DNA of 44,657 nucleotides from a virus. The notes under the pieces were generated by a model. It was given only the letters and a program-made list of their open reading frames with translations, had not been told where the DNA came from and ran no database searches. Positions 5,012-31,943 of the stretch are shown here, piece by piece (positions within the stretch are counted from its first letter, which is position 1; the number at the start of each line of letters is the position of its first letter). Position numbers and translations under genes: made by a program. Where the stretch lies: positions 1 through 44,657 of the IMG/VR virus record IMGVR_UViG_3300042307_000516; one strand, given 5' to 3'.

Positions 5012-8000
5012 TTATGGGTTAGGTAACATGTTGCTTAGTGCTTTGGACTGGTCAAATGACCACTGTTTCTGTGTCTGTGAAGTTGAGTAATCCTGCAGCT
5101 TCTGACCAAGTAACCAGTTAATCAATAGTCTAGTCTTCTTTTCGGCCTGTTCAGTAGGAGTAAGAGTCTTTTCTGGCTCCTGACCTAGACCTGTGATCTT
5201 GGATATTGTGTTAATACCACCAACCTGATCAATAGCGTACTCTAGCGGGTTTCTAATGTCTCCTCCAGTACCCACCCTGTTACCCGTGGTGAGCTCAGCG
5301 AACCACTTAGGCAATGGTGATAGGTTCTGGCCTGCAAGGTTCTGTGTGCCCCTTGTAACGGCGTCTAGGCCCGTTTGACCTGGCTGTACGGTATAACCGC
5401 TAAATAAGCTGTTTAGGATGTCTAGCTGCGGTACAGCAGGCCCAAAGCCCCATGCGTCGCCTGGACCATTAGGACCCTGGAACTGAGGACCATATAAGTT
5501 GCCTGTGTTCCATGAAGCATATATTCCATTCGGATCCCAAGGATCTCCAAATGACTCTGGGTTGAAACCATTTGCCTCTGCAAACGCATATTGGATCTTA
5601 GAAGGAATAGTAATAGTACCTGGCTGTTGCACAATTAGCTGGAACACCTTAGTTGCCGCAATACGCTGCCAAGTGTAGAAGTAAACAGCACGACGCATGT
5701 ACTTGCGCTCGAACGCAGACAATCCATAAACTGTTGGGTGGTAAGTTGTCACCACTTGTGCAGCTGCAACTGCAGCTTCTTCTAGCGATCCGTAAACACC
5801 ACCCTTTTCAATTTCTTTAATAAAGTGTGCTAGGCGGAAGAAATTATCACGGGCTGCGCTAATTCCAGAAAGTTTGTCATTTACCTTGCTTACGCCACCG
5901 ACAAAACCACCAGAAAGTGCACCAACTCCGCGCATGTCGATATCTTCTACTGCACCGGCACCTCCTCGGATAATTATGCCAAGCTCGTCGGCAAGAGCCA
6001 TAACTGCGCTTTCTGGGACAAGGGTAACAGAACCTGTCGTAGAGTTAACAAAGCTAATTGTGCCAACTTGGTCGTATTTAAGTTGCATACCTTTTGGCGA
6101 AGCGTAATCCATGTATTGCTTAAAAGGATTGTCGCCTGGCTTGTATGTTGTTGAATCGTACTTAGTGAGAATTTCAAAAGCATTGCTGTAATACTTAGGA
6201 GTTACACCAGCAAGGGTATTCATAAGACCTTCACCAACAGAAGTTGTTACGTGGTGTCCAGCTCTCCAGGTTGTTTGAGATGCCTTTAAGACGCTAGTTA
6301 TCATGTCAACCATGTTGACTACTTCTTGCACGGTTTCATTACTAAACGAACGTTCGTAAGTAAGATACTTTTTAATGTATTTCATTCTTTCAAGCTCACT
6401 AGCATCAAACAGCATTTCCGGATCAAGGAATTTACCAAACTCGTCTTCAGGATCGATTTTTATAAAACCCTTACTTATTTCAGCAGGAGTAAGCCCTTCA
6501 TCTTTAAGTTCCCTTAAGGTTCTACCCATAGCAGAGCTATAAGCTTGACCAATACCAATTCGAGTCTGTACTGCATGTAAAGACTGTGCGTAGTTAGCTA
6601 AGAATGTAAGAGAGTTAAACGGCTTACCCTTAGCTCCTTCTTTAAGGGTGCCAACGTCTGCTCTAGCCCAAGAATACTTAACACCCATTGGGCCAAGATC
6701 GCTTGGTAGCTTAAACGCTTGCTCTTCACCAATGTCAAAGAAACCTTTAACAGAGAAAATTCTGTTTAGTTCATCTGCAAAATAAGGCTGCTTAAAGCTC
6801 TGGCTAAACACACCCATTGGGACTCCAGTTGGATCTACTCCAAACAGTGCGTCTACCATAAACGATAGATCATCTGCAATTTCTAAATTAACGTTGCCAA
6901 CTTTTGCAGGTTGCGCCCACTGTAAGAATGGAATCTCAGATCTTCCGGCTTCAAAGTTTTGGTACATCTCCTTACCCCACTGCTGCACAAGCTTAAAGGC
7001 ATCATCAATTTTAGCTATGTCACCTCCGTGCTTCTCGGCCAATCGTTTTAGTGAAAGAGTAAAGTAATGTGTACTTGATGTAATGTTTTTGTATTCAACG
7101 CCACCAATAATAGTTTTTCCGCCAAGACCAATTCCAAATCGACCACTCATTGCGGTCATCAAGCGAGAGCTCATCCTATTATCGGTAACTTCGCCTATGG
7201 CTACAGTTAAGATGTCTTCTAATTCATCACCAGACGCTAAGTTAAAGGATATGTTGCTACCTTCTTCTGATAGCGGTGCAGGGTTTGCAATTTCTTCTGC
7301 AAGTCTTGGTTCCTGTGCTTTTAAAGTCTGTGGAACAAGAGAACTTGCTTTTTGATACTCTTCGGCAGTTGATCTTCTTCTAGCGTCTTTACCCTTTGCC
7401 TTTTGAGTAGGTGTTACTTTCACTGTTCGCTTCGCAGCGCCCATAGCGTCAGTCATTTTAATTTCTTTTTTAGCAGCCTTATAAACTTCATCGAACTGAT
7501 GCGCCACAAAAGAAGCTACCTGTGCAGTTGCATTGTCCCCAATTTTTGCTATTAAGTTCTTGTCCTCAGCATCAACAAGCTTTTTCATAAACATGTTGAT
7601 AATGAGTTCTTTTACTTCGTCTGCTGTTTTGGCGTCCTTAAAAGTACCAGCAGTTTTTGCAGATGAAACCATTAGCGATTTCATAAGACCAGTAATTTTA
7701 TTTAATCCACTGACGCCCTTTGCCGCTACACCAGACGCAAGAAGTTTTGTAGGGTTCCCCGGAGATGCGTTAACTAGATTAGGAAGATCACTTAGGAACT
7801 TAGTTCTAGCATTAAGTAACTCAAACAACTCAAGGAAAAAGTCCCTACTCTTTTGCATAGCCTCAGAAGCCTCAGAAGCCATTACGGCAGCAGCCCTTGT
7901 TGCGTGGATTGACAATAGCTCATCCGAGGTGTCGGCCATTGCCTGAATTACAGTGTCAATTTTTTTATCTAGGTCTGGTATCTTTTTAAGATTTATTACT

Positions 8001-10516
8001 TTACCGTCAACGGTTATTGGTTTAGGGTCAAGGTGCAGTGCTGGAATGAAGAAATCATCAACGTCTTTATTTGTAATTACACCATCTGTTGGGTCGGGGA
8101 GATTGTAGTTTTCGTTAAGACTCTTTTTGATTGCCTCCCACGCTTCGGTCCCTGGCTTAATTTCCTGACCAAGAGACTTGTATCTAGCCAATGTCATAAA
8201 TGCGTATTCAATGTTGCTAGGCATAACGTTTTGATATTTGCTGCCAGGGTAGCGAATGGCAGCAAAAGCGGCTCCCTTGCCTGATCTAATTGCCGCTTGC
8301 AATATATCTGAAAGTGTAAGGTGAAGTCTTTGTGGTACAAAATTCTTACTTAGCTTCGTTCCAATTTTTTGTATACCATCTCGGCGAAGCTGCATCAAAA
8401 GATTTTCCTCTGTGCCAACCGGGACACCTATTAGTCTAAGTAGGCTTTCTTGAGCACCGGATAGCGTTGACTCTTCTGCGATCGCTTGCTCTGGTGTCCT
8501 ATTCTTTTTTCTTACAAGAGCTCTTTCTGCGTTGACAATATTGTTTTGTCCGGAGAAACGAGCCTCAGAGCTAAAGAAGTCTAGCTTTACTGCTTCTGGA
8601 GATATGGAGAATTTAGGATCGTTAATAACACTCTTATTTCCACTTGCTGCGTCTATAATCAAATCTTTTACAGATTTGTTTTGGCTCTTAGCGAGCGCTT
8701 CTAATTTAGCGTACGGTCCATATTCAAGCGCATTTCTAAGAACATACTCAAGCCTAAATCCAGCAGTTTCTGATTCACCTCTGTAGATAGAATCAAGGTA
8801 GCTAATAAGTTCTTCAGCAGAACTTAGTCTTAAGTTGGTGGCATCGTCTACAAGCTCTTCGGTTGTTTTTGCACTTGCGCCGGGCGTACCGCTTACAACC
8901 TCATCGATGATATCGGAGATCTGTTTATCAACTTCACCCTCAAGATCCATTGCTTCTTCAACAATCTTTCCCACCTCAGGAGCGTTAACTATTCCAATTG
9001 CAGCAGCAGCGTTCTCGGTTGTAGCGTTCACTCCCTTGCTTTCAAGGAATCTAGCGTAGCTACTAGCTTCCTCTTCTAGGTCTGCTAATTTTTTAAAGTC
9101 TTTCGACATTTTGATTAGTGTCTTATTTACAAGCTCAACAGTTGTCTGCGCTGGATCGTTAGTGGTTCCTATTGCTTTAGCAAATCTTTCAAGTCTGTTT
9201 GCGGTGGGCTTCAACCTGCCAGCTGCGAGCTCTGCGGAAATGTAATCTAAAAGTTCTTCTTTTGTCGTAGCTGATTCGGATAGCTTCTTACCTGTCTTAG
9301 GGTCAATAACTTTGTTTGCGTAATCGAGAATCTCGGTCTCTATCTGAGAGTAAGAACTTTTAATTTTGCTAGCTTGACGACTTATCGCAGAACGAGTCTT
9401 TTTGCTTGCGTTTATTGCGTCAACTATTTCTGCGCTCTTTAGACTATTACTTGCAGCAACAGTATCCTGTATATCCTGTGCGCTGCCCGGTACAGCAGGT
9501 AAAGCTTCTTCAACAGCCACTGGAGGAGTAATCTGTGCGGCATCTTCAAGTTGAGCAACTTTAGCGGATTCGCTAGCCTTTGCAGCGTCAACCTTTTTCC
9601 CGGTCTTTGGATCAGTAAAGCGGGTGTCCTCTAGAGTCTTAACTTGAGTCTTAAGCTTGTCAAAACGCTTAGAGTATCGCTGTTGCAGAACAGTACTTTT
9701 TGAAACAGCTTCCATAAATTTAGCTCTGTTTATTAAGGCAGTCTCGTTTTTAATTGCACTAGTAGCAGCTTTTCCTAGGTTTCCTCCAGCTTTTACCGCA
9801 CCAATAGCATAAGTAACGTCGCCAGTTTCTTTTGCGTATTTACGAGCCTCTTTATTTATTTTCTTATTGCTTATGTCAGCAGCACGCTCAGCACGCTTAA
9901 AGTCATAACCACGAAGAACTCCAGTTAAATAGTTTCCAAGTTTTTGTCCCTGAGTAAGCGGTTCTGCAACCGGGACAAAAGCGCGAGTAACGTCCGGTAG
10001 ATTCATTGCAGCAGCTTCAGTAGCAGAGCGAACAACTACGGCATTTGCTTTATTCGCAGCTGATGCTAATCGTGTTCCTGCAGCAGCACCTTTTACACCG
10101 GCGATAGTTCCGCCAGTAATGTAAGTTGTTGGGTCTAGACCAATGTCAAGTGCAAGGCCTAACCATGTTGAAACGTTTTTGTCTACGCCTAGATCGCGAA
10201 GGTTCTCACTATAAGTTCTGCGTTCCTGAACACCCTTTACCGCTGCCCCGGGAACAGATAACGGATTAAGAAGATCAAGCAGACCACCAAGATCGCCACG
10301 CTGGATAGCGGAAACATTTTCGCCCACCTTTCTAGTGATACCAGCTGAAGCATATCCTCCTGTAGAAAGTATGTCAATGATCGACTGGCCAAGATTCCAT
10401 GCCCCAGTTTTTTGATTGGCTGACATGCCGGCGTTAGCTGCTTCAGCGTTGAAAGCGCCAGAAGTTTTACCGGAAGCGCCGGCAAGTGCTTTGAGTATCT
10501 CAGGGTTTAGGGCCAT
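5012..10516 (-). CDS. Giant internal virion / ejection-type protein (1834 aa)
   Basis: By far the largest gene. The N-terminus has hydrophobic, Gly/Ala-rich stretches (SIIDILSTGGYASAGITRKV, then LDIGLDPTTYITGGTIAGVKGAAAG), suggestive of membrane insertion. Residues roughly 200-650 are long Lys/Glu helices. The last 400 residues contain aromatic segments (YMRRAVYFYTWQRIAATKVF; WDPNGIYASW) like the C-terminal part of large phage 'polyvalent' or internal proteins. No lysozyme, protease or polymerase motif was recognised. Position at the end of the virion operon after tail genes fits an ejected pilot protein comparable in role to T7 gp16 or P22 gp16. SD AGGAT. Confidence 0.7.
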   Translation of the reverse strand: MALNPEILKALAGASGKTSGAFNAEAANAGMSANQKTGAWNLGQSIIDILSTGGYASAGITRKVGENVSAIQRGDLGGLLDLLNPLSVPGAAVKGVQERRTYSENLRDLGVDKNVSTWLGLALDIGLDPTTYITGGTIAGVKGAAAGTRLASAANKANAVVVRSATEAAAMNLPDVTRAFVPVAEPLTQGQKLGNYLTGVLRGYDFKRAERAADISNKKINKEARKYAKETGDVTYAIGAVKAGGNLGKAATSAIKNETALINRAKFMEAVSKSTVLQQRYSKRFDKLKTQVKTLEDTRFTDPKTGKKVDAAKASESAKVAQLEDAAQITPPVAVEEALPAVPGSAQDIQDTVAASNSLKSAEIVDAINASKKTRSAISRQASKIKSSYSQIETEILDYANKVIDPKTGKKLSESATTKEELLDYISAELAAGRLKPTANRLERFAKAIGTTNDPAQTTVELVNKTLIKMSKDFKKLADLEEEASSYARFLESKGVNATTENAAAAIGIVNAPEVGKIVEEAMDLEGEVDKQISDIIDEVVSGTPGASAKTTEELVDDATNLRLSSAEELISYLDSIYRGESETAGFRLEYVLRNALEYGPYAKLEALAKSQNKSVKDLIIDAASGNKSVINDPKFSISPEAVKLDFFSSEARFSGQNNIVNAERALVRKKNRTPEQAIAEESTLSGAQESLLRLIGVPVGTEENLLMQLRRDGIQKIGTKLSKNFVPQRLHLTLSDILQAAIRSGKGAAFAAIRYPGSKYQNVMPSNIEYAFMTLARYKSLGQEIKPGTEAWEAIKKSLNENYNLPDPTDGVITNKDVDDFFIPALHLDPKPITVDGKVINLKKIPDLDKKIDTVIQAMADTSDELLSIHATRAAAVMASEASEAMQKSRDFFLELFELLNARTKFLSDLPNLVNASPGNPTKLLASGVAAKGVSGLNKITGLMKSLMVSSAKTAGTFKDAKTADEVKELIINMFMKKLVDAEDKNLIAKIGDNATAQVASFVAHQFDEVYKAAKKEIKMTDAMGAAKRTVKVTPTQKAKGKDARRRSTAEEYQKASSLVPQTLKAQEPRLAEEIANPAPLSEEGSNISFNLASGDELEDILTVAIGEVTDNRMSSRLMTAMSGRFGIGLGGKTIIGGVEYKNITSSTHYFTLSLKRLAEKHGGDIAKIDDAFKLVQQWGKEMYQNFEAGRSEIPFLQWAQPAKVGNVNLEIADDLSFMVDALFGVDPTGVPMGVFSQSFKQPYFADELNRIFSVKGFFDIGEEQAFKLPSDLGPMGVKYSWARADVGTLKEGAKGKPFNSLTFLANYAQSLHAVQTRIGIGQAYSSAMGRTLRELKDEGLTPAEISKGFIKIDPEDEFGKFLDPEMLFDASELERMKYIKKYLTYERSFSNETVQEVVNMVDMITSVLKASQTTWRAGHHVTTSVGEGLMNTLAGVTPKYYSNAFEILTKYDSTTYKPGDNPFKQYMDYASPKGMQLKYDQVGTISFVNSTTGSVTLVPESAVMALADELGIIIRGGAGAVEDIDMRGVGALSGGFVGGVSKVNDKLSGISAARDNFFRLAHFIKEIEKGGVYGSLEEAAVAAAQVVTTYHPTVYGLSAFERKYMRRAVYFYTWQRIAATKVFQLIVQQPGTITIPSKIQYAFAEANGFNPESFGDPWDPNGIYASWNTGNLYGPQFQGPNGPGDAWGFGPAVPQLDILNSLFSGYTVQPGQTGLDAVTRGTQNLAGQNLSPLPKWFAELTTGNRVGTGGDIRNPLEYAIDQVGGINTISKITGLGQEPEKTLTPTEQAEKKTRLLINWLLGQKLQDYSTSQTQKQWSFDQSKALSNMLPNP

Positions 10517-14739: not shown

Positions 14740-15161
14740 TACTTCCTAAGTACCTTTCCATTGTGGCGGTATTCGTTCTTGCGGGAACTTACGATGGACT
14801 TCATCATGTCCTTCTTTTCCTCCATCCATTCTAGCTCACGCTTGGCCTTCATGGCGGCTTCAGCCATTTCTAAAATCTGAAGCCTATTTACTTTTGAGTT
14901 TGGGTCGTGCATGTTGTTTTCTACAAGCCAAGCAACAAGCCTTTGATCCACTTCAGACTCCCGCATGTACCTGATTACGTACGGAGGTAGCATGTGGGGC
15001 TCATCTACTAGCGCAAATGGCCGTTCTGGATCAAAAGATGGATGTAGCGAATCTACTCGGATTAATCTAACTGTCGGAAAAAGGTCCCGAATAACCTCAG
15101 CAACCCTACGGTGATCCGTTGAGTATAGCCCGTCAATCTTGTCAAATTCTATATAGCTCAT
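14739..15161 (-). CDS. Virion-region hypothetical protein (140 aa)
   Basis: Unrecognised. The first 65 residues look alpha/beta (STDHRRVAEVIRDLFPTVRL, then PFALVDEPHMLPPYVIRYMRESE) and the last 50 are a strongly basic helix (EAAMKAKRELEWMEEKKDMM) with a basic tail. SD AGGAGG is strong. It is the first gene after the coat terminator and overlaps the adaptor gene by one base. It could be a decoration, completion or scaffold-related protein. Confidence 0.65.
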   Translation of the reverse strand: MSYIEFDKIDGLYSTDHRRVAEVIRDLFPTVRLIRVDSLHPSFDPERPFALVDEPHMLPPYVIRYMRESEVDQRLVAWLVENNMHDPNSKVNRLQILEMAEAAMKAKRELEWMEEKKDMMKSIVSSRKNEYRHNGKVLRK

Positions 15162-15195
15162 ATTTATTGCCTCCTAAGTTAAGTATAAAGTAAAA

Positions 15196-15232
15196 CCCGT
15201 GGGGATAGATGAGACGGGTCTATCCCCACGGG
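15196..15232 (-). terminator. Intrinsic terminator after the coat gene
   Basis: A perfect 14-bp stem (15196-15209 with 15219-15232) and a 9-nt loop, followed on the minus strand by TTTTACTTT. It separates the coat gene (stop at 15247) from the downstream connector genes and probably lowers, without abolishing, read-through. Confidence 0.9.
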
Positions 15233-15246
15233 CAATTATTTACTGT

Positions 15247-16479
15247 TTACTTCTCGGTGATGTTAGATAGTACCGCGTGTGCGTTTCTGCGGTAGGTACC
15301 TAGCTGAGAGTACTGGTAGTAACGTGCTTCGTATGCGTCGGTGTCTGCGACACGTGACCACATAGAACCATCGCGGTCCATCCATGCCCAGTCGCGCTTG
15401 CGGTTAACCACAATCTCTTTCGAGCTTAGCGCGTACAAGGTGCTTGGTGGAGCTGCGTAGTCCGATACGAACTTGATTGGCTTGCCAACTGCGTCGAATG
15501 AGAACGCACGCTGACCACCCTCAAGGGTTGCACCGTTGGTGAACTGACGTAGACCCTGTAGCAAGTCCCAGTAAGCGTTGAAAACGCCTGGGCTAGCTAG
15601 GATTACATCTACATCTCCACCCTGCTTGTCAACCTTCTGAACTAGGTTGATCAAAGCCAACTCAGTTAGAGCGCCAGTGGATACTCCTGGGGTTCCAAGA
15701 GCAACCTCTGTAGCTGCCCATACTGGGTAGCTGGCTGGGTCGATTTCGTGTAGTTCACCAGTAGCCTTAACGATTGCACCTAGACCAGTCCATTCCTTAC
15801 CGAAGGAGTTTACTCCGTTGGAAGAACGAACTAGGAAGTCACCAGCGCTGATGTTGGTGTTGAAGGTACCAAGAGTACCGGACACTGTAATTACGTTGGT
15901 TGTTTCGTTAATTGCTGTGATTTCTAGCGAGCTTGCTGCACCTGACTGCTGCTTTACACCAGTTGTTGGGTCAACCACGTCAAAGGTCATTCCGACCTGT
16001 AGGTAGTGGTCAGTGTCAACGGTCAAGGTTGAAGAAGAAGGCTGAGCAGTAACTACTGCCAACTTACCTGAGCCATCTCCGTAAACCTGACGGTTTAGAT
16101 CGTTAGCTAGGTCTTTTCTTAGGCCCTTGATTTCGTTGTCAACAACGTTGATGAATGACTGGTAGTTCTCGGATGCCTGCTCGAATAGCTGTCCGTCAAC
16201 CTCAATAGAACCGTATAGGTTTGTGAGGTATAGGTGAGCTTGCTTGTACTTCTGAGCTCCGGCAACTGGTAGCTTCTCGCGAACGCCACGTGCACCGATT
16301 CCCTGGTTACGTCCAATGTGAGTATCGAAGATAACTTCTTTACCGTTTTGTGTAATGTTAGCTGCTGAAGACTCAATGAGCTGTAGCGCAGGGTTCTTGT
16401 CCCTTAGCTGCTCGTGTAGATCTCCATAAACCAACTTGATTGCTTCTGACGCAAAGGTCAGAATTGAGGTTCCTGCCAT
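15247..16479 (-). CDS. Major capsid protein
   Basis: 410 aa. It starts with a helix-rich arm (EAIKLVYGDLHEQLRDKNPA), then a beta-hinge pattern GKEVIFDTHIGRNQGIGARG, an E-loop-to-spine region, an inserted beta domain at about 140-225 (TLTVDTDHYLQVGMTFDVVD, then ISAGDFLVRSS), and a C-terminal axial part ending YQYSQLGTYRRNAHAVLSNI. This fits an HK97-fold coat with an I-domain-like insertion as in P22-type capsids. The gene has its own promoter (16565-16573), a strong SD (AGGAG) and terminators on both sides, as expected for the most abundant virion protein. Confidence 0.85.
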   Translation of the reverse strand: MAGTSILTFASEAIKLVYGDLHEQLRDKNPALQLIESSAANITQNGKEVIFDTHIGRNQGIGARGVREKLPVAGAQKYKQAHLYLTNLYGSIEVDGQLFEQASENYQSFINVVDNEIKGLRKDLANDLNRQVYGDGSGKLAVVTAQPSSSTLTVDTDHYLQVGMTFDVVDPTTGVKQQSGAASSLEITAINETTNVITVSGTLGTFNTNISAGDFLVRSSNGVNSFGKEWTGLGAIVKATGELHEIDPASYPVWAATEVALGTPGVSTGALTELALINLVQKVDKQGGDVDVILASPGVFNAYWDLLQGLRQFTNGATLEGGQRAFSFDAVGKPIKFVSDYAAPPSTLYALSSKEIVVNRKRDWAWMDRDGSMWSRVADTDAYEARYYQYSQLGTYRRNAHAVLSNITEK

Positions 16480-16564
16480 GTGAATGACTCCTATGATTTA
16501 AGAAAGAGGGATTATTAGTATCATTTGGCCCTGACTCGGAATCGGCTGTACCACTGACATACCT

Positions 16565-16573
16565 AGAATACCA
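16565..16573 (-). promoter_or_regulatory. Extended -10 promoter of the coat gene
   Basis: On the minus strand TGGTATTCT (TG-N-TATTCT), with no need for a good -35. The expected transcript start is near 16558, giving about an 80-base leader before the ATG at 16479. The same nine bases occur at 22286-22294 in the divergent late promoter, which suggests a shared late promoter type. Confidence 0.55.
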
Positions 16574-16596
16574 TAAATCCTCGGGATACAAGCAAA

Positions 16597-16625
16597 CCCG
16601 TCCACTGCTTTCGCTAGTGAACGGG
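16597..16625 (-). terminator. Terminator between scaffold and coat genes
   Basis: Stem CCCGTTCACT with AGTGGACGGG, one bulged A, and two more pairs closed by a GAAA tetraloop; followed on the minus strand by TTTGCTTGT. It lies 13 bases after the scaffold stop codon. With the promoter just downstream it resets transcription for the coat gene. Confidence 0.8.
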
Positions 16626-16637
16626 CTTACTTATGTA

Positions 16638-17507
16638 TTAAATAGAGTTTCTTTGAGCTTTGGTCTGCTCTTCAAACATCTGAATAAGCATTGCTTTTTT
16701 GTCGTTAAAGTCCTTAGGAATAGTAAGGGGTGTTGTCTGAATAGAGTTTCCTCCATTAGCACCTATTACCGTTGGGGCTGGCTGGCTTGGGAGCTGGCCT
16801 TTTTCGTTGTAACGAATGCCGGTGATCTCAGCAAGTTCACGTGCTGCTGTGTAGACAGTTGCGTCTTCACCACGCTCTAGCTGGATCTCCATTAAACCTA
16901 AAATACGGTTCTGAAGTTCCGGAGAGATGTCGTACTTAGAGTTTAGATCTTCAAGCTGCTGGCCAAGCACTTCCTGCTCTTTAGCAACTTCAGCTTCAAA
17001 CTGAATGTTTTCTAAGTACTCTTGCTGCTTAGAAATTAGCTGGTCCCGAGCTTCAAATTCTTTTCTAATTGCCGGGTTTAGCTCGTAGTTCTCATCTTCG
17101 CCATCTTCAATAGCATCAGCCTGCTCTTCTACGGCTTCAGCTTCTTCCAATAGACCCTGCTGACGTAGGTTTTCTGCAAGTGTACGGTAAAGGTATACCG
17201 GATCATTTAGCGCAACGTCTGCTAAGCGAAGACTATCGCGGATAATGTCAGGCTGTAAACCGTTGTCAATAAACTCCTTAAATGGAGTGAACTTTTCTAG
17301 CTGCTGCTGAAAGTTACGATCCTGTTCCTGAAGGTGAGGAATTACCTTACTGTGCCATGCTTCCGGAATTTCGGCAAGCAACCCATCGTAAGCCGGGTGA
17401 ACCTTAGAGTCGTTAGCTGGCTCTACTGCTGGTGTATCTGGTGTTTCAATTGCAGGGGCTTCCTCAACCGGGGCCTCTGGATTTATATCGAATTCTGTCT
17501 CAGACAT
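16638..17507 (-). CDS. Scaffolding protein
   Basis: 289 aa, acidic and mostly helical. The N-terminus is Pro/Glu-rich and disordered (PEAPVEEAPAIETPDTPAVE), the centre is a long acidic coiled coil (EEAEAVEEQADAIEDGEDEN and FEAEVAKEQEVLGQQLEDLN), and the C-terminus ends with a basic helix (FNDKKAMLIQMFEEQTKAQR) of the kind that binds coat protein. The position between portal and coat is diagnostic for podoviral and siphoviral scaffolds. SD TAGGAT. It is seven bases beyond the portal stop. Confidence 0.8.
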   Translation of the reverse strand: MSETEFDINPEAPVEEAPAIETPDTPAVEPANDSKVHPAYDGLLAEIPEAWHSKVIPHLQEQDRNFQQQLEKFTPFKEFIDNGLQPDIIRDSLRLADVALNDPVYLYRTLAENLRQQGLLEEAEAVEEQADAIEDGEDENYELNPAIRKEFEARDQLISKQQEYLENIQFEAEVAKEQEVLGQQLEDLNSKYDISPELQNRILGLMEIQLERGEDATVYTAARELAEITGIRYNEKGQLPSQPAPTVIGANGGNSIQTTPLTIPKDFNDKKAMLIQMFEEQTKAQRNSI

Positions 17508-17514
17508 ATGTCTC

Positions 17515-19677
17515 TTATCCTAACTGTTCTTGAGTGAAGCCAGATTGGTCCGGCTGTGTACCTGGTGATTGTTCTTCTTGCATTCCATCAGCTGAAGGAT
17601 CTTCTATGGCACCGCCACGTAGAGCTTCTTGCATTTGCTTCATCATCAAAGCGTTCTCGTGGATCGAGATGTGCTTCTGGAATTCTTTCTTAACAATATC
17701 AGGCAAAATCTCATATGCCTGAGACTTGCGGAACCTGTTGTGAATTTCAATGTGAACTGCGTGGTTATCCCAGCCATTGACTGGGATAACTGCCGGTACC
17801 TGAAGTGGCGCACCGGTTGTTGGGTCGATCTTGTCTATGTCACCGTTTGCAGCTCCAGCATTCCAAGCTTCCTCAACTTGCTGTGCAATTTCATCAGTAA
17901 TCTTCTTCATCATCAAGTTCTCACGCTGAGCAGCGTTTTCGTCGATCTTGATTACGTTGTAGTACTGCTTGAGCATACCCATCTCTAGGATACGTAGGCC
18001 ATCTTCTGGGCTAATGAAGCCCATCTTCATCCATTCAGTAACTAGGGCCTGGCGAGCAGACTTGCTAGTTGGAAGAGCTGATCCGGACTCGATCTTAATG
18101 TCAGTTCCAGAAGCAACGTCAGATCCAGAAAGCATCATAGCGTCGAATGAGCCATCGGATCCGGTGATCTTGATCATGCGCTTTTCTTCTACGTACTGCA
18201 CAAAGAGAGACAATGCCTGACGAGCAATCTTTTCAACACCAGCTTCGATGCTGTTAAAGATTGTTGTTAGATAAGCATCGTCGCGCTCGCCAAGGTAAGC
18301 CAAGGCGGTTGCTGCTGTAACCCCGGATCCAGACTCGCCACGGCTAATCTGGTGCTGGCCTGAGATGTCCTCAAAGTCCTGCTGAAGCTGAGTAATCTCT
18401 TGAAGCACGTAGTTAGGTAGTGGCTGAATAGGAACTGGGGTAGGCATGGAGAATCCTGGGCGTACTGGAATCCAGATACCAGCGCGAGCTGTGATCTTCT
18501 TTGGATCTACAGAACCTTCGGCGTACATCATCTGTGGCTTAGCCATCAGGTTCTTTGCGTGGATAATCTGTGATCTTGTACGGTTAAGCTCACGCTGCAA
18601 CGGGATTAGCGTCTTTATAACTGACCGACGGTAGAACTTTCCGTTCTGGATGCCGTGTAGGTGAGCAAAAGGGTATTGTCCATGGTGGTAAGGAATACCA
18701 GTGTTGGACAACTGAACTATCTCACTGTCTACGATTGTTACAAGGCCACCCTGAGGTAGGTAGGAGATTTGGTTTGGCTTGATCCAAGCCTCAATTACCA
18801 ATACGGCATCAGGCTTAGCCGTGTCTACTCCACGAAGATCCATGATGGCTGCATCCTGAATTTCACTTGCGTTTACTTTTGTTGGAACAAAGTCTTTAGG
18901 TAGTACGGACTTAAAGTTCTGCTTTACCCATTGCTCGCTCTTGGTGTATACGTTAAAAATATAAGGCTGTTGTTCTAGATCTTCTTGAGATAGATCTGGG
19001 ATAAACAAATGGAACGGAGAAACTACTTCAAACTTAACGTCACCAGTAGCGGAAACTGCCCTTCGGACTGTCTTTCTTCCCGTCATTGGGTCTACAAGTG
19101 TCTGGTTTTCATAGTGCTTGATGGTTGGATCCCAGAAGCATTTAATGAATCCATTACCGCAAACTGCACGCCAAAACTCTGCCTTCTGAAGAATCTCAGT
19201 TTGAAAATTGTTCCTGTCATATACGGATTGCCAAACTTGCTCACCGGCAGTTGCGCTTAGTAGATCTTCTTCATCGTTTGAAGCTGGCACTACGGCTGCG
19301 GATGGTTGCTGGGATGTAGTCTTTGCAATCTCTGTGCGGATTACTGGCTCAATACGGTTAACGGTAATGCGTGGTAGATTGGCTGGGTTAGGCTCTTCCA
19401 TAAGGCCTTCTTTGCCGTTAATGGTTCCCCAGTTGTGGTACTGCTTGCCGTTGTAAAAAGCAATCTGAAGGTACCAGTCAATTTCTTCGTTCTTTCGAGC
19501 TGACTTGCACTTCTCGTATTCGGCTTTGATCCAAGCTACTAGCTTCTTTGAGTCTTGGTCTTTTTTAAACTTATTAAGAATACTGTCTTCAACAAGCTCA
19601 CCAGGCATGGCTGGATCCTTTTGGTAGAGGGCTTGATCGGCTACGGTAATTTCCTTGCCGAGTTCGTCAGTCGCCAT
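17515..19677 (-). CDS. Portal protein (P22-like)
   Basis: 720 aa, matching the length class of P22-type portals. Early wing: AWIKAEYEKCKSARKNEEID, WYLQIAFYNGKQYHNW, then LPRITVNRIEPVIRTEIAKT, a typical portal segment. Middle: FWRAVCGNGFIKCFWDP and FEVVSPFHLFIPDLSQ. Crown/stem region: SRGESGSGVTAATALAYLGERDD and a helical C-terminus with Gln-rich tail. It forms the dodecameric DNA channel at one head vertex and the docking site for terminase. The ATG lies within the last codons of the preceding gene (11-nt overlap). Confidence 0.88.
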   Translation of the reverse strand: MATDELGKEITVADQALYQKDPAMPGELVEDSILNKFKKDQDSKKLVAWIKAEYEKCKSARKNEEIDWYLQIAFYNGKQYHNWGTINGKEGLMEEPNPANLPRITVNRIEPVIRTEIAKTTSQQPSAAVVPASNDEEDLLSATAGEQVWQSVYDRNNFQTEILQKAEFWRAVCGNGFIKCFWDPTIKHYENQTLVDPMTGRKTVRRAVSATGDVKFEVVSPFHLFIPDLSQEDLEQQPYIFNVYTKSEQWVKQNFKSVLPKDFVPTKVNASEIQDAAIMDLRGVDTAKPDAVLVIEAWIKPNQISYLPQGGLVTIVDSEIVQLSNTGIPYHHGQYPFAHLHGIQNGKFYRRSVIKTLIPLQRELNRTRSQIIHAKNLMAKPQMMYAEGSVDPKKITARAGIWIPVRPGFSMPTPVPIQPLPNYVLQEITQLQQDFEDISGQHQISRGESGSGVTAATALAYLGERDDAYLTTIFNSIEAGVEKIARQALSLFVQYVEEKRMIKITGSDGSFDAMMLSGSDVASGTDIKIESGSALPTSKSARQALVTEWMKMGFISPEDGLRILEMGMLKQYYNVIKIDENAAQRENLMMKKITDEIAQQVEEAWNAGAANGDIDKIDPTTGAPLQVPAVIPVNGWDNHAVHIEIHNRFRKSQAYEILPDIVKKEFQKHISIHENALMMKQMQEALRGGAIEDPSADGMQEEQSPGTQPDQSGFTQEQLG

Positions 19678-20020
19678 TATTTATATCCAAATCTTTCCAG
19701 AGTTCCTGCATGCGCTTTTCGTCGGCCAAAAGTTGCTCGTATTCTTCGCCCGATACATAAGGTCCATTATAGCCTACATCTTTGATTGGCTCCGGTGTAG
19801 CAGCCTGAATCATTTGATAAGCTATTGGGTCTTTACTTGCTAGCAGATTTAATGCTTGGCTTAGTAATCTTTGCTGTTCCTTTGCTGCTTGCCTCTGTAG
19901 CTCCAGCGACGACAGAAGGGTCTCCAGCGTCGGCTTTATTACTTTCAGGTTGAACAGGCTTATTAGTGCTAGCGACGCTAGCAAGGCTAGTGACAAACTC
20001 GCCAAGTAGAGAGTTGACAT
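19667..20020 (-). CDS. Membrane-anchored coiled-coil protein overlapping its neighbour (117 aa)
   Basis: Residues 2-25 are strongly hydrophobic (YLASLSLALLASLALISLF), a signal-anchor-like helix. Residues 30-65 are a Leu/Gln coiled coil, and the C-terminal third is acidic with PYVSGEEYEQLLADEKRMQE. The first 188 bases overlap the 3' end of 19833-20309 in another frame. The start has AAGGAG about ten bases upstream, and its stop overlaps the portal start, so it is likely real. Function unknown; a membrane or virion-assembly accessory in the packaging cluster. Confidence 0.6.
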   Translation of the reverse strand: MSTLYLASLSLALLASLALISLFNLKVIKPTLETLLSSLELQRQAAKEQQRLLSQALNLLASKDPIAYQMIQAATPEPIKDVGYNGPYVSGEEYEQLLADEKRMQELWKDLDINNGD

Positions 20021-20309
20021 TCTGGGTTAGCTCCTTTATTAGTCTCGGTGATGCTTCGATCTGATCTTCTAGTTTTGCAACCTCTGCCTTTAGCTCAGAG
20101 GTGTCTTTCTCATAAACTGCCTTGAGAACAAATCCAGCAAAAAGCGCTAGATCTTGTAGGCACATGTCGCAAAGGTAGGCCCCGCGATTTGTCCCGCTAA
20201 TCATGCCGAGATCCCACAGCTTATTAACATTTGAGCAGGCAAGGCAAACACCAGGAAACGGCGCTCCAGCTTCATAAAATCTGTAACTTCTATCGAATAT
20301 GTTAGTCAT
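19833..20309 (-). CDS. Zinc-ribbon plus coiled-coil protein (158 aa)
   Basis: The N-terminal part holds C-L-A-C (22-25) and C-D-M-C (48-51), a two-knuckle zinc-ribbon pattern. The middle (about 60-110) is coiled coil (ELKAEVAKLEDQIEASPRLI), and residues about 110-158 are Ser/Thr/Ala/Lys-rich and disordered. The disordered tail is exactly the part overlapping the transmembrane start of the next gene, as expected where one frame evolved under another. It follows the large terminase by one base. Function unknown. Confidence 0.65.
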   Translation of the reverse strand: MTNIFDRSYRFYEAGAPFPGVCLACSNVNKLWDLGMISGTNRGAYLCDMCLQDLALFAGFVLKAVYEKDTSELKAEVAKLEDQIEASPRLIKELTQNVNSLLGEFVTSLASVASTNKPVQPESNKADAGDPSVVAGATEASSKGTAKITKPSIKSASK

Positions 20310-20310
20310 C

Positions 20311-21846
20311 TCATCCTTCTAGGTTTTGCGTCGTGCCGAAATTCTTCCAGCTTCTTCCCCAAGAATCGCTGTCGTCAGTATCGGAGATTGGTGTGACGGG
20401 AGAAAAACGTTCATGGAAAAGGCTATGGAACCTCTCGTCAACTTCACGGCCGGCCATCTTGTCTGGGGTCAAGTCGTCCATGAAAGTCATTGCATACTTA
20501 AGAGCATCATAGCAGTGGTTGTTCACGTCTCTAATGTCTTCTTGTTTATTGTGCTGCTCTGCCATCTTAGCAGATGCCCACTTCTTCCATTTGAGTTTTG
20601 GCAACTCAGCTATTAGATGAGGGCAATCATCCGTAATCATCAAGAATGGTTTCTTTGTCTTAGGGTTCATCTTGAAGTACTTTTGAAGCCTCTCCAAGCC
20701 TACCCTACGATCTGTGGGGATAGAGTCAACCGAGATGTAAATTCCGGCTTTCTGGTATTCCTGCAAAATTGAGGTACCGCTGTGCTCCTTGGTCTGCTTG
20801 ATCGCTGGATCTCCAGTAGTTAGCCAAACGTCACAGCCATAGTTATCCTCTATCTCCTTGGTTATTTTATTGACTATCTCTGCATGCTCAGCCACGGTCT
20901 TCTTGGCGGCATAGTGCTCCCTAAACACTGTGATTGTTCCATCCGGAGCTATTGCTAGCCATAACCAAACGGTGGGGTTAGTCCAGCCAGAGTCCATGGT
21001 TCGCACGATTCGATAGCCCTGCTTAGGTATAAAGACACCTTTAGGAATGCAGTGAGTTACCGGTGAGAAGTCTGGGAATACGGCTCCACCAAGGTGCACA
21101 TACTGTCCCTTAGATCTAACTTCTCTCTCTTCAGGAGATAGCATGTCAAGGAACTTCTCAATAGCTTCTTTAGATAATGAAGGGTTGTCATAGATCTCGG
21201 CTTCGGTGATGCCGATGTTCTTCTTACCTTCTTTAGCTGGCGTATAAATCTCGTCAAAGATCCACTCCATACCTTCAACTGGGGTCTGGGACATCCACCA
21301 AACACCTCCGGTGTCAACCAGTCGGGCTAGACACTCCTTAAATATTGACTGTGGGCACTCCTCGTCAAAGTGAATAAAGTGCCTAGAGGATCCGGCAAAC
21401 TTATCTAGATCCTGGTCCTGGGACATAAACTCCACAAACGATCCGTTATTCAGGGTCAGCACGTGGCGCTCTTTAGAGTAGCTTTGCTCCCAGGATCCAT
21501 TGATCAAAAAGCTCTTTGGTAGCCACTGCTTGTAAAGCGGGAGGATGATCTTATCCACACCGTTTAGAAAGTCAACCGCTACTACTCGTCCCCGTATTGG
21601 TCCATCGGGTACGTCTCTAAAAGGATGTGAGGCGGTAAGCCACCAGATTGCTTCAATAGTCGAACCAAGTGACTTACCAGATCGGTTTCCTCCAATGTAA
21701 AGACGATCCGCGTGTACGTCACTGTGGAACTGCTTCTGCTTATCACTCGGGATATAGTCATAGAGATTAGGCTGTCGGCTTGCCTCACTGAGGCCTTCCC
21801 CGAGTTGAAGAAGAACGGAAGCCACATCGTACGTCTCCTTAGCCAT
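20311..21846 (-). CDS. terL: Terminase large subunit
   Basis: 511 aa. ATPase: Walker A GGNRSGKS at residues 52-59; Walker B HFIHFDEE with D161 and E162; coupling motif near SQTP (187-190). Nuclease: candidate metal-binding acids D285 in RTMDSGW, D346 in TTGDPAI and D447 in NNHCYDALKYAM. It cuts and pumps DNA into the head through the portal. The order terminase-portal-scaffold-coat-adaptor is P22-like, which would suggest headful packaging. The recognised small-subunit candidate is far away at 2550-3311. It overlaps the resolvase gene end by 8 nt. Confidence 0.93.
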   Translation of the reverse strand: MAKETYDVASVLLQLGEGLSEASRQPNLYDYIPSDKQKQFHSDVHADRLYIGGNRSGKSLGSTIEAIWWLTASHPFRDVPDGPIRGRVVAVDFLNGVDKIILPLYKQWLPKSFLINGSWEQSYSKERHVLTLNNGSFVEFMSQDQDLDKFAGSSRHFIHFDEECPQSIFKECLARLVDTGGVWWMSQTPVEGMEWIFDEIYTPAKEGKKNIGITEAEIYDNPSLSKEAIEKFLDMLSPEEREVRSKGQYVHLGGAVFPDFSPVTHCIPKGVFIPKQGYRIVRTMDSGWTNPTVWLWLAIAPDGTITVFREHYAAKKTVAEHAEIVNKITKEIEDNYGCDVWLTTGDPAIKQTKEHSGTSILQEYQKAGIYISVDSIPTDRRVGLERLQKYFKMNPKTKKPFLMITDDCPHLIAELPKLKWKKWASAKMAEQHNKQEDIRDVNNHCYDALKYAMTFMDDLTPDKMAGREVDERFHSLFHERFSPVTPISDTDDSDSWGRSWKNFGTTQNLEG

Positions 21847-22270
21847 GAATTAATGATACAAGCTCTCGAAGGGTTAAGCGAACTAGCGTGTCGCTATGGG
21901 TCTCTATGTTGGTTCTTAGGTAGATCAGATCGCTAAGCTTTGCGTAGGCCCACCATTCGCCGGCTCGGGGGTACCCAACACCAGCACGCTGAGTAACAAG
22001 AAAACCAAACTTGCCATCAGCGTTAGCTTTTTCAATTTCGGCTTCTTCATACCATTTCCTTATTTGTTCGTAGCTGGCGTCTTTGGCAGACTTCCCGCCT
22101 TTGATCTCAAATACAATAAGACCATAGCTTTCACGTAGCCAAACGTCTCCTTCATCGGCTGATCCTTTCAATACGTTACGGTGAGCTGTCATTGGGTCAT
22201 AGCCAACTGATAAAAGGTAGTTTCTAACGGCGGTCTCGGCACGTGTGCCAATGTCTTTAGATTTACTCAA
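21839..22270 (-). CDS. Holliday-junction-resolvase-like PD-(D/E)XK nuclease
   Basis: 143 aa. The motif order of archaeal Hjc-type and related phage nucleases is visible: E12 in GTRAETAVRNYL, D42 in EGDVWL, and E55-x-K57 in IVFEIKGGKSAKDA, followed by helix YEQIRKWYEEAE. It probably resolves branched DNA before packaging, which fits its place just before the large terminase. The start is TTG at 22270 with SD GAAGGAGA six bases upstream. It is first in the leftward virion operon, expressed from the compact divergent promoter. Confidence 0.8.
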   Translation of the reverse strand: MSKSKDIGTRAETAVRNYLLSVGYDPMTAHRNVLKGSADEGDVWLRESYGLIVFEIKGGKSAKDASYEQIRKWYEEAEIEKANADGKFGFLVTQRAGVGYPRAGEWWAYAKLSDLIYLRTNIETHSDTLVRLTLRELVSLIHG

Positions 22271-22282
22271 GAGTGTCTCCTT

Positions 22283-22302
22283 CTCTGGTATTCTATTAGC
22301 TA
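22283..22302. promoter_or_regulatory. Compact divergent promoter for both late blocks
   Basis: Only 31 bases separate the TTG at 22270 and the ATG at 22302. The plus strand has TGGTATTCT (TATTCT at 22289-22294), predicting a start at 22301-22302, on the ATG itself. The minus strand has TAGAAT at 22295-22290, predicting a start near 22283 and a mRNA opening with GAAGGAG. The two -10 elements overlap by five bases. Confidence 0.5.
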
Positions 22303-22567
22303 TGGGTTTTTCAGGCGGTACACAACTAACATATCAGGAACTTAAGGATCTTCACCTTAATTCTGATGTTGACGAAAACCCGCTTGCTTACCATCATACA
22401 CTAGGTCCGTTGGCTGGGCAGGCTAGCCCCGGAGATCACGTGCATGATGGTAAGACATCTAAGAGAATAAGTTTTTCTGATATTGAAGGCGGCTTGTGGA
22501 ATATCGACGGCGGTATTCCTAGCACAATTTATACGCCGATCCCAGTTTGGGACGGTGGAGGAGTCTA

Positions 22568-22568
<1 letters not shown>
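22302..22568 (+). CDS. First tail-block protein, likely leaderless (88 aa)
   Basis: Unrecognised. It begins [20 protein letters not shown] and has a [20 protein letters not shown] segment, the 'HTLG-x-x-x-x-QA-x-x-GDH-x-HDG' pattern often seen in phage tail-fibre and virion proteins. No SD precedes the ATG, but a -10 ends eight bases before it, so a leaderless transcript is likely. The longer in-frame start at 22245 would overlap the resolvase start and lacks support. TAATG junction with the collagen-like fibre. Confidence 0.65.
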
Positions 22569-24399
<1,831 letters not shown>

Positions 24400-24403
<4 letters not shown>

Positions 24404-24912
24404 GTGAACTATCTGTAGGTGAGCTACGTGGGCTGACTGTAAACAACAACGTTATTACTATTGCTTCTGGCCACAAACTTTCCATCCCAGGGCATGTTTT
24501 GCAAGTCGTTCAAAGCTCATTTAGCACGCAAGCCTACTCCACCTCAGGTAGCTTTGTGGATACAGGATTAACAGCGACAATTACCCCAACGTCAGCTTCA
24601 AGTAAGATTTTAGTTTTAGTTTCTCAGGGTTTTGCCGTTCAACATAACAACGGTGGAAACTGGGTATCGGGCGAATTTGCTGGCTTCAGGGGAACTACTC
24701 AGCTACAAACTGTTTATCTTGAAGCAAGAGTTGGGTATGGTCAAGGAACCGTCTTGACCGTAGCTTCGAATTACAGCCTAAACTTTTTAGATTCACCTGC
24801 AACCACTTCTGCAACCGTTTACAAAACCCAATTTAAAAATGGTGGAACAGGTACCTATGCTAATTACAACAATACCTTAGCAACAATTACTTTAATGGAG
24901 ATTGCGCAATGA
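24400..24912 (+). CDS. Small fibre protein, paralogue 1 (170 aa)
   Basis: Beta-rich, starting at ATGA overlap with the collagen fibre; GGAG lies about nine bases upstream. Key segments: [40 protein letters not shown] and [18 protein letters not shown], ending [11 protein letters not shown]. The same skeleton (VQVVQ..., (D/T)ITPxxxxSKI, FLDSPAT, xxITLxEIAQ) recurs in 25460-25969 and more loosely in 24909-25463. These probably are alternative or stacked fibre tip domains. Confidence 0.75.
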
Positions 24913-25463
24913 GTACATTAAGGGCAAGTAATATAGAAGACCTTGGTGGGGTAAACCAACTTGTAAGGCCAGGAACCGTTGTGCAGGTGCAAACTGTTAG
25001 AAGTGACTCAAGAACAACTATTGCTTCAAATAACTCAGGTGACGGAACTACTATTACTCAGTTGAATTTGAGCATTACTCCAAAATTTGCAAATAGTAAA
25101 CTAATTATGCAGTGGATGATAAACGCAGAAGGTAACCACGACACTGTTTTTTTAATTCACAAAAACGGCTCTTTAATAACAACCGCTGGCGCAACTGGCT
25201 ATAACGCTGAGTCTGGAAACGTTAGATGGTCTGGAGTTGCAGCTGGAGCCTGGGACAATGATAATTCCACTACTCCTAGCAACTACTTTATTCAATACGA
25301 GTGTATTGCTGGCTCTACTTCCCCACAAGTATTTGCCCCAGCAACAAGAGCTTCCTATGGTACAAGTCAGACTCTTTTCTTAAACAGAACAGTTAGAAGC
25401 ACAGGCCAAGATAATGATGAAACAATGATTTCAAACGGAACAATTTGGGAGATAGCACAATGA
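24909..25463 (+). CDS. Small fibre protein, paralogue 2 (184 aa)
   Basis: Starts four bases inside the previous gene's end. It shares TVVQVQTVRSDSRTTIAS, LNLSITPKFANSKLIMQWMI and the ending ISNGTIWEIAQ with its neighbours, but the middle (EGNHDTVFLIHKNGSL and FIQYECIAGSTSPQVFAPA) is divergent and slightly longer. This is the pattern seen in proteins often annotated as phage tail proteins. It is probably a beta-sandwich virion surface protein. Confidence 0.7.
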   Translation: MSTLRASNIEDLGGVNQLVRPGTVVQVQTVRSDSRTTIASNNSGDGTTITQLNLSITPKFANSKLIMQWMINAEGNHDTVFLIHKNGSLITTAGATGYNAESGNVRWSGVAAGAWDNDNSTTPSNYFIQYECIAGSTSPQVFAPATRASYGTSQTLFLNRTVRSTGQDNDETMISNGTIWEIAQ

Positions 25464-25969
25464 CATCAACAATGAGATTTGACAGATGGCAAAACAGCCT
25501 TGGTCAGCCATACGGTACAGTGCTGCAGGTTGTTCAAGTGGTAAAGACGGATGTGTTTTCTACTGCTAGTTTGACAATGGTTGACATTACTGGACTAGCA
25601 GCATCAATAACACCGCGCTTTGCTTCATCAAAAATACTTGTTCAATTATTTATAGGCACGATAGACCCTTCGACAGATAACATGATGGCTGGAGATATAA
25701 CTAGAAATGGAACAGCTATTGGAATTGCGGATGCCTCAGGAGTAATAATTAGAGCTGGCTGGAACGTTGGTATTGTTGCAGGAAATAAAGGCCAAACCGT
25801 TAAGTATGATTTTTTAGATTCTCCAGCAACCATAAGTCCTATAACCTATCAAGCCAGAATGAGGAACTTTGCTGGAACTGGTTTTATTAACAGAATGTCT
25901 GGAGAAACAAATAGCACTAACTTCTCTCGCACAATCTCAACAATCACATTAACAGAAATCGCACAGTAA
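25460..25969 (+). CDS. Small fibre protein, paralogue 3 (169 aa)
   Basis: The ATG at 25460 overlaps the previous stop by four bases; a longer in-frame start at 25445 is less likely. Segments GTVLQVVQVVKTDVFSTASL, AASITPRFASSKILVQLFIG, YDFLDSPATISPITYQARM and ISTITLTEIAQ parallel paralogue 1 closely. Three such genes in a row suggest duplication followed by divergence of receptor-binding surfaces. Confidence 0.75.
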   Translation: MTSTMRFDRWQNSLGQPYGTVLQVVQVVKTDVFSTASLTMVDITGLAASITPRFASSKILVQLFIGTIDPSTDNMMAGDITRNGTAIGIADASGVIIRAGWNVGIVAGNKGQTVKYDFLDSPATISPITYQARMRNFAGTGFINRMSGETNSTNFSRTISTITLTEIAQ

Positions 25970-29946: not shown

Positions 29947-30471
29947 ATGCCTAGAGTAAATCAAATTCAAGTACGCAGGGATAGTGCTGCTAACTGGACT
30001 TCAGTCAACCCGACCCTTGCTGCTGGCGAAATTGGTTTTGAGACCAACGTTGGCGCTATCAAGCTTGGAGACGGAACTACTGCTTGGACGTCACTGCCTT
30101 ACTTAAGAGCAACTGAGCCTGCTGGAAACGCTGATGCAGCTAAGACTACTGGCTACGTTGGTATGCCTCAGGTAATTCTAAACACTGGAAACCTTACACT
30201 TAGCAAGGCTCATGCTGGAAAGCACATTTACGTAACTGGTGCAAGCCAGACAATTACAATCCCGGCTAACGGATCAGTGCCTTTTGAAATTGGTACAACA
30301 ATTGTTATTGTAAATGGAAACCTTACTAGCTCAATTGCGATCACTAGCGACACACTTAGACTTGCTGGCACGGCAAACACTGGCGCAAGAACCCTTAACG
30401 CAAATGGTATTGCCACACTTATAAAAATCGAAGCGACTACTTGGATAATTTCAGGTAACGGACTCATCTAA
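29947..30471 (+). CDS. Short tail fibre with Mtd-N-like head (174 aa)
   Basis: Residues 1-55 (VNQIQVRRDSAANWTSVNPT, LAAGEIGFETNVGAIKLGDG, TAWTSLPYL) are a close paralogue of the first 50 residues of the collagen-like fibre at 22568. The rest is a beta-helix/sandwich-like Thr/Ile-rich region (HIYVTGASQTITIPANGSVP, AITSDTLRLAGTANTGARTL). Probably a second fibre using the same docking site. TAATG junction with the third adhesin. Confidence 0.75.
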   Translation: MPRVNQIQVRRDSAANWTSVNPTLAAGEIGFETNVGAIKLGDGTTAWTSLPYLRATEPAGNADAAKTTGYVGMPQVILNTGNLTLSKAHAGKHIYVTGASQTITIPANGSVPFEIGTTIVIVNGNLTSSIAITSDTLRLAGTANTGARTLNANGIATLIKIEATTWIISGNGLI

Positions 30472-31310: not shown

Positions 31311-31943
31311 GTGTCATCATGGATCAGGCCTGTTGAAGGCAAGATTACCGACAGTTTTGAAGGTCACAAAAACAGAGCAAAGCCTGCAGTAAACCCAGGC
31401 ATTGACTACGGCGTTGCTTTCGGCACGGGAGTAAAAGCTGTTGCTGATGGTGTCGTTTCTGGCATCGTATCAACTTTTACTGGTTCTGGTGGTCGCATGA
31501 TCTTCCTAGACTTTCCATCTGGACACAGAGCTGACTACCTTCACCTATCCCGCATAGACGTGCTACAGGGCCAGGAAGTAAAACAGGGTCAGATTATTGG
31601 ACTCTCCGGAGCTTCAGGCTTGGGTAAAGAATATGGCTATGGCCCACATCTTCACTTTTCATTCCGTGTTGGTGGAAGACCTACAATGGGCGCTGGCAAT
31701 CTTGACTACGAAGCATTCTTAACTCAGCAAGGTGTTGCACCTGCTGCACCTAAAGCACCCGTTGCCCCTAAAGCACCTGCTGCTCCTAAGCCTGCTGCTA
31801 CTGGAACTTATACAGTCAAAAAGGGTGACAACCTTACAAAGATTGCCAAAGCTAACAACACTACTGTTGCCAAGCTGGTAGAACTAAACGAAATAAAAAA
31901 CGCCAACCTTATTAGCGTTGGCCAAATATTGAAAGTGAGCTAA
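31311..31943 (+). CDS. Endolysin: M23 endopeptidase plus LysM
   Basis: 210 aa, GTG start with SD AGGAG. Peptidase M23 (LytM/lysostaphin-type) domain about 5-130: NPGIDYG with D32, YLHLS with H78, and GPHLHFSF with H113 and H115. The position normally held by the first zinc ligand (H in H-x3-D) is N28. A linker of AP-K repeats (about 139-160) joins a C-terminal LysM at 162-210 ([20 protein letters not shown]) that binds peptidoglycan. It cleaves peptide cross-links at lysis. No signal peptide, so it depends on the downstream holin. Confidence 0.88.

Follow-up and report, generated by a model that had tools for sequence, protein, structure and literature searches.

Two genes that lie between the terminase and portal genes of a virus, here called A and B, share a stretch of DNA in different reading frames, and both frames of the shared stretch are almost certainly coding. 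The overlap is conserved among relatives, selection for coding is detected in both frames, and B adjoins the portal gene. The window analyzed was the whole 44,657-base IMG/VR virus record IMGVR_UViG_3300042307_000516 (positions 1-44,657). Taken as a whole, these observations are best explained by two proteins being made from one stretch of DNA, with B as a membrane-anchored partner of the portal protein, an explanation that we favor tentatively.

Genomic organization of the overlapping genes

The locus is encoded on the minus strand in the order nuclease-like gene (22270..21839), terminase large subunit gene (20311..21846; 511 aa; phrog_2, E = 6.4e-26), A, B and portal protein gene (17515..19677; 720 aa; phrog_156, E = 1.1e-56; PF16510 P22_portal, E = 2.9e-25), followed by head genes. 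The original prediction had placed an out-of-frame overlap of 188 nt in this packaging cluster, and both the overlap and its place are real: by their ORF coordinates, A (20309..19833, 158 aa) and B (20020..19667, 117 aa) have 19833-20020 in common, with B in the +1 frame of A, as is also found in relatives. Two further features that had been noticed were borne out. A Shine-Dalgarno-like AAGGAG (20036..20031) for B is located inside Lys-Glu codons of A, 10 nt upstream of B's ATG, and the end of B overlaps the start of the portal gene by 11 nt (19667-19677). Since the end of B runs into or up to the portal start, B and the portal protein are probably made together.

The ORF and a structural model indicate that A consists of a zinc-ribbon-like N-terminal domain (CxxC...CxxC), a long helix (residues 63-112) and a disordered tail. 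The ORF, an anchor prediction and a model of B support the hydrophobic anchor (residues 4-22) and helical stalk (to residue 61) originally proposed for it; these are followed by a KDPIAYQ motif (residues 63-69; 19814..19834) and a C-terminal helix. The suggestion that the anchor is overprinted on the disordered tail of A stood only in part, as the anchor lies mostly over the end of the A helix (A residues ~100-118), and it is the coiled coil of B that covers the A tail (residues 113-158). We therefore refer to zone 1 (19952..20017, B codons 2-23), where the B anchor lies over the end of the A helix, and zone 2 (19833..19951), where the B stalk lies over the disordered tail.

Several plus-strand genes elsewhere in the window were also recorded. 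Three tandem genes at 24388-25969 encode proteins of 174, 184 and 174 aa which all match the end of tail-fibre family phrog_6942, and which look like a repeated receptor-binding cassette. A 618-aa protein with long collagen-like Gly-X-Y repeats is encoded at 22547-24403, and a protein carrying Mtd_N, the N-terminal domain of the major tropism determinant, at 29947-30471. At 31311-32209, the gene for a likely M23/LysM endolysin precedes one for an 87-aa protein that contains a hydrophobic stretch; the latter carries a nuclease family label in PHROGs and looks more like a holin by its place and sequence.

The A/B arrangement is conserved in relatives

Window positions 15000-24000 had no DNA-level match among 50,697 phage records, and neither the window DNA, A, B nor the B of the distant viral contig L036 directly matched any cultured phage; cultured relatives were reached through terminase and portal matches. 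Scans of viral contigs identified 9 loci with A as query, 30 with B and 44 with an alignment of B. Searching the plus strand of the 88 sequences collected for the B motif found it in 85, the three without it being the window's own plus strand (L037) and two phage records (L083 and L084). After setting aside L016, L027, L044 and L060, which are cut at the 5' end of B, the motif-selected set comprised 38 distinct pairs: the window, 32 viral contigs and five cultured phages. Both frames were open and B was in the +1 frame of A in 38/38, with overlaps of 95-359 nt, and of 161-191 nt in 27 of the 38. The longest belongs to the distant pair in L036 (4331-5270), in which A (235 aa) and B (196 aa, with a longer coiled coil) are both longer than in the other viral-contig pairs.

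We also selected loci independently of B. From the 431 relatives identified by scanning with a terminase alignment, we took the 80 best loci (at least 50% identity in the best segment). Nine were too short after the terminase gene, and the other 71 represented 60 distinct sequences; 41 of the 71 (36 distinct) carried an A/B stretch absent from every earlier viral locus. In each we looked for an ORF with a strongly hydrophobic N-terminus ending no more than 90 nt from the portal start, and for an overlapping gene in the right frame. Both were present in 60/60 distinct loci, with overlaps of 161-266 nt, although the length may be overestimated in four of the 60, for which a TTG start is given. 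The K[DE]Pxx[YF]Q motif was found in all 60 although it was not a selection criterion. The portal start lay between -56 and +14 nt from the end of B in 60/60 and overlapped it in 33; as the search itself required B to end no more than 90 nt from portal, only the tightness of this range is informative. Homologs with one frame broken by stops, named at the outset as the finding that would count against the overlap, were looked for in both sets and numbered 0/38 and 0/60. Three contigs (L171, L175 and L176) have an additional gene of 106-118 aa between terminase and A. No relative turned up when bacterial and archaeal genomes were scanned with the B alignment.

The Shine-Dalgarno site of B was stronger than the mean of resampled A codons in 34 of the 38 pairs and among the strongest 5% in only one (L023), and was very weak in relatives L032 and L033. 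It is therefore suggestive, at most, that this site is stronger than the codons of A require.

Both reading frames are coding

Each A codon in the overlap is made up of the third base of a B codon and the next two bases, so that A acquires a stop wherever the last base of a B codon is T and AA, AG or GA follows. We counted such T-ending codons, leaving out codons for K, Q, E, W and M. Among the 60 distinct loci there were none at the positions where A would stop, in either zone 1 (0/52) or zone 2 (0/571), whereas the same stop-risk contexts outside the overlap had T-ending codons at 224/582 places in the B-only part and at 2438/7395 (33%) in the portal gene. The 38-pair set gave the same picture (0/46 and 0/405 versus 134/363 in the B-only part and 1608/4777 in portal). 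Because some loci belong to both sets and related sequences are not independent of one another, these figures are counts and not probabilities. Even where no stop could arise, T-ending codons were approximately halved in the overlap (176/1152 and 179/1184, versus 522/1376 and 6714/21213), and the composition of A thus seems to be selected too.

Resampling of codons at local usage led to the same conclusion. With the B protein of the window held fixed, 3.35 stops were expected in the A frame and the probability of an open frame was 0.012; with the A protein fixed, 3.26 stops were expected in the B frame (P = 0.015). Across the 38 pairs, expected stops ranged from 0.17 to 6.42 in the A frame and from 0.07 to 4.83 in the B frame, and the shortest overlap, that of Shocker, was uninformative (P open 0.84). 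The hydropathy peak of B was matched by at most 1.2% of resamples that preserved A. In the terminase and portal genes, windows of the length of the overlap, which overlap each other, were open in the matching frames at 3662/38229 (+1) and 1831/38229 (+2) positions.

It is very improbable, in light of these counts, that only one frame is translated in the overlap and that the other is open by accident. The weak sequence constraint on the A tail described below would fit this reading, but it does not account for the lack of a single T-ending codon at 571 + 52 chances to stop A, nor for an A frame that is open in 38/38 and 60/60 loci when approximately 2-4 stops are expected in most. Production of B by frameshifting from A was rejected, since B is provided with a start of its own and, in 36 of the 38 pairs, its frame is interrupted by a stop no more than 15 nt upstream of that start, the exceptions being DS1 and Shocker.

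Selection differs between the two zones

We counted substitutions by their effect in each frame in gap-free, anchored sets of sequences, of which Z, U and J are single pairs. In an unanchored count, sets Y, Z and 'all188' mixed shifted starts (mean identity ~0.5); its W, X and V agree with the anchored count. At fixed effect on A, the ratio of nonsynonymous to synonymous change in B was 0.15 in set W, 0.22 in X, 0.21 in Y1, 0.10 in Y2, 0.35 in Z, 0.30 in Z2, 0.20 in V, 0.24 in U and 0.15 in J, and 0.36 when 19 sequences were pooled. A fake +1 frame in the portal gene, used as a control, gave 0.54-0.91 in the four sets with usable windows (V had none and W only three). The B protein is under purifying selection. 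For A the ratio was 0.45-1.48 where defined, versus 0.90-2.23 in the fake frame, and was below the control in X, Y1 and Y2 but not in W. Because it reached or exceeded 1 in W, Z, Z2, V and U, the constraint on the A sequence over the whole overlap is weak.

In 9 of 10 sets, zone 1 had a lower rate than zone 2 of substitutions that are silent in B but change A (zone 1/zone 2, for example: W 0.108/0.264, X 0.171/0.477, V 0.216/0.511 and pooled 0.297/0.582), the exception being Y2, in which zone 1 was not slowed (0.331/0.224). Both proteins are thus held where the B anchor covers the A helix, whereas in zone 2 B is conserved and A mainly just has to stay free of stops. The codon-level test in both frames that had been proposed for this locus therefore gave a clear answer for B, which is under purifying selection, and a divided one for A, which shows stop avoidance and slowing in zone 1 with weak or absent constraint on its tail.

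Properties of the A and B proteins

The model of A (mean pLDDT 73) has a zinc-ribbon-like start, a high-confidence helix at residues 63-112 and values below 50 for residues 115-158. Its CxxC pair is present in 53 of the 60 distinct relatives and lost in seven, so zinc binding is not universal. A fold search with A gave nothing at E ≤ 0.001, the best match being an unnamed 175-aa viral protein (1.1e-3), and against solved structures there were only weak matches to ribosomal-protein and other fragments, from E = 0.08.

B is modeled with moderate confidence (mean pLDDT 72.6, pTM 0.30) as one helix, residues 2-61, which runs through the anchor, then a break at the motif and two further helices. 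The B protein of the window had no match in Pfam or PHROGs, nothing better than E = 0.039 among solved structures and no match at E ≤ 0.001 in a viral fold search. Of the Lys and Arg residues flanking the anchor, none are located before it and one to three after it in 38/38 pairs, and those after exceed those before in 60/60 terminase-selected loci. Positively charged residues tend to remain on the cytoplasmic side of the membrane (the positive-inside rule), and B is thus predicted to be oriented N-out/C-in, with its C-terminus in the cytoplasm.

B is missed or shortened in the annotation of cultured phages

The nearest cultured phages are members of Arthrobacter Jasminevirus (terminase 41-42% and portal 39% identity), Cellulosimicrobium phage DS1 (42% and 38%) and Microbacterium phage Shocker (38% and 38%). 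The A/B overlap is 329-332 nt in three distinct Jasminevirus sequences, 254 nt in DS1 and 95 nt in Shocker. In 8/8 Jasminevirus records the B frame is kept yet unannotated, with only A and portal annotated under the match; in the Jasmine record it occupies positions 7005-7457. B is also present and unannotated in DS1, where its start is less certain because the frame is open for 231 nt before the ATG, and in Shocker it is annotated from a later start, which drops the anchor. By alignment, the CxxC pair is absent from the A proteins of Jasmine and Shocker; the window A weakly matches the PHROGs family of Jasmine's A (E = 0.0033). A more distant phage, ctEqG8 (terminase 34.6%; L083:5488-6154), has an A-like zinc-ribbon gene and, at the place of B, an overlapping 94-aa coiled-coil ORF with neither anchor nor motif, which may represent B in a form lacking the anchor or may be unrelated to it. 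In ctLwi270, which matches only part of the portal protein, there was no such overlapping pair.

Among open-access papers, judged by titles and abstract openings, we recognized no description of this A/B pair, and the word 'overlapping' is absent from the main text of the Jasmine genome paper (PMC5513430). The cultured relatives lack gene B in their annotation or have it shortened. Gene calling that avoids long overlaps lost B, and similar genes may be missing too.

A possible role for B at the portal

The gene order and predicted topology suggest a mechanism in which two genuine proteins would be made from one stretch of DNA by independent initiation. A would be a soluble zinc-ribbon/helix protein encoded just after the terminase, and the Shine-Dalgarno sequence within its helix codons would start B in the +1 frame. 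B is predicted to enter the cytoplasmic membrane with its N-terminus outside, and to present its stalk, K[DE]Pxx[YF]Q motif and C-terminal helix to the cytoplasm. Coupled to the portal, it could act on the cytoplasmic side to tether the portal or procapsid to the membrane, and so might place portal or procapsid formation, or packaging, at the membrane, in a role similar to that of the portal chaperone gp40 of T4. That B is a membrane-anchored, cytoplasm-facing coiled-coil partner of the portal is a plausible but doubtful proposal, drawn from gene adjacency and prediction. The podovirus-type phages phiEco32 and ctKR88, in which portal directly follows terminase, count against it, as head assembly elsewhere needs no B. 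The broader idea of a large family of actinobacterial podovirus-type phages with a hidden, overprinted portal tether, whose heads are initiated or filled at the cytoplasmic membrane, is somewhat unlikely; if true, a packaging factor and the tether would be bound together in one piece of DNA.

It is unlikely, though in keeping with the location of its gene among virion genes and beside portal, that B is instead a virion protein in the head or at the portal that is ejected upon infection and whose hydrophobic helix would insert into the membrane as the DNA enters. B is small and, in the model, helical, and the cultured relative Jasmine is a podovirus (PMC5513430). However, a separate 1834-aa protein of unknown family (window 5012-10516) would be the more usual type of internal virion protein.

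A role as a lysis protein or lysis regulator (holin or antiholin) in the cytoplasmic membrane would suit the single short anchor and charged cytoplasmic part of B. Lysis genes can also be near, as a peptidase and a membrane protein in Shocker and an acetylmuramidase in ctEqG8 are encoded just upstream of terminase. We nevertheless consider this role decidedly unlikely. The M23-LysM endolysin of the window (31311-31943) is on the opposite strand to B, which lies outside the lysis cassette, and in Jasmine the annotated endolysin gene, which has a holin gene next to it, is distant from B. A holin gene would be expected to adjoin the endolysin gene, but B adjoins portal, with which it stays in 60/60 loci. 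Small membrane proteins of phages frequently serve in host takeover or superinfection exclusion, and B could be one of them, placed before portal by chance. Genes of this kind tend to change place and to be replaced rapidly, whereas B has kept its position and its motif, and has been under purifying selection, over deep divergence; this role is therefore improbable.

The original prediction had noted, with caution, a likeness to the nested Rz/Rz1 genes, and this likeness fails. B has an anchor and a coiled coil and its gene overlaps another, as would an i-spanin paired with A or another overlapping gene, and spanin profile phrog_739 weakly matches 6 of 30 members (best E = 2.5e-4) while phrog_1403 weakly matches the B of L036 (E = 4.1e-4). 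However, the predicted topology is opposite to that of an i-spanin in 38/38 pairs, and A is not a lipoprotein: no hydrophobic signal was found in it, with a peak hydropathy of 0.84 in the first 60 residues of the A of L001, which are the same 60 as in the window. Profile phrog_739 also matches gp3 of Bacillus phage Page (E = 0.0095), where there is no outer membrane to fuse, so the weak spanin matches probably reflect the combination of anchor and coiled coil. A WhiB-like regulator is encoded on the minus strand of the window (39732-40034, also given as 39753-39935) and was found in 6/6 relative virus records searched; in a control search of 14 genomes, WhiB matched only in Corynebacterium. 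Together with the actinobacterial hosts of the cultured relatives, this makes the host of the window very probably a monoderm actinobacterium. An i-spanin function for B is accordingly very improbable.

With B read as a portal partner, as we prefer, it becomes possible to test whether actinobacterial phages assemble their heads in connection with the membrane. Independently of function, a deeply conserved and well-supported overlapping pair is added to the packaging module of tailed phages, and the pair illustrates how, in a +1 overlap, one frame can encode a membrane anchor and a coiled coil opposite, respectively, a soluble helix and a disordered tail in the other.

Comparison with known systems

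Bacillus phage Page, which has a Gram-positive host, encodes directly before portal a 138-aa anchored coiled-coil protein, gp3 (phrog_14137; L089:2305-2721), which resembles B in its N-terminal hydrophobic segment, long coiled coil and short C-terminal motif. However, Page has neither gene A nor a long overlap, and gp3 was dropped as a homolog of B on an hhalign probability of 0.3%. Epsilon15 gp3, also encoded between terminase and portal, is 68 aa long and has no anchor.

In Rz/Rz1, Rz is oriented N-in/C-out and Rz1 is an outer-membrane lipoprotein (PMC6139136). The A/B pair resembles it in that two genes overlap in different frames and one product is an anchored coiled-coil protein (PMC6139136), but differs in having no lipoprotein partner, the opposite predicted topology, probably no host outer membrane and no endolysin gene beside it. 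T4 forms its portal initiator at the inner membrane in a gp40-dependent manner (PMC9958956). The likeness to B lies in the proposed job alone, that of helping the portal initiator to form at the membrane (PMC9958956); we claim no relation in sequence or structure, and the link is made through gene adjacency and the predicted anchor.

The +1 register makes an overprinted anchor cheap, since the T at position 2 of hydrophobic B codons is the third codon position of A. In phiX174, E is a lysis protein encoded inside D. There, a Leu-rich membrane segment arises in the overprinted frame through the displacement of T from the third codon position to the second, and de novo proteins in the +1 frame tend to be hydrophobic (PMC8227390). 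The two pairs are alike in their same-strand overlap and in the register in which the anchor of B stands to A, whereas the A/B overlap is partial, lies in a tailed-phage packaging cluster and joins two genes that each have a long non-overlapping portion. The phiX174 D/E pair is thus the closest precedent for an anchor overprinted by a shift of T, and A/B is a further case of this known +1 overprinting, notable for its conservation and for having been missed.
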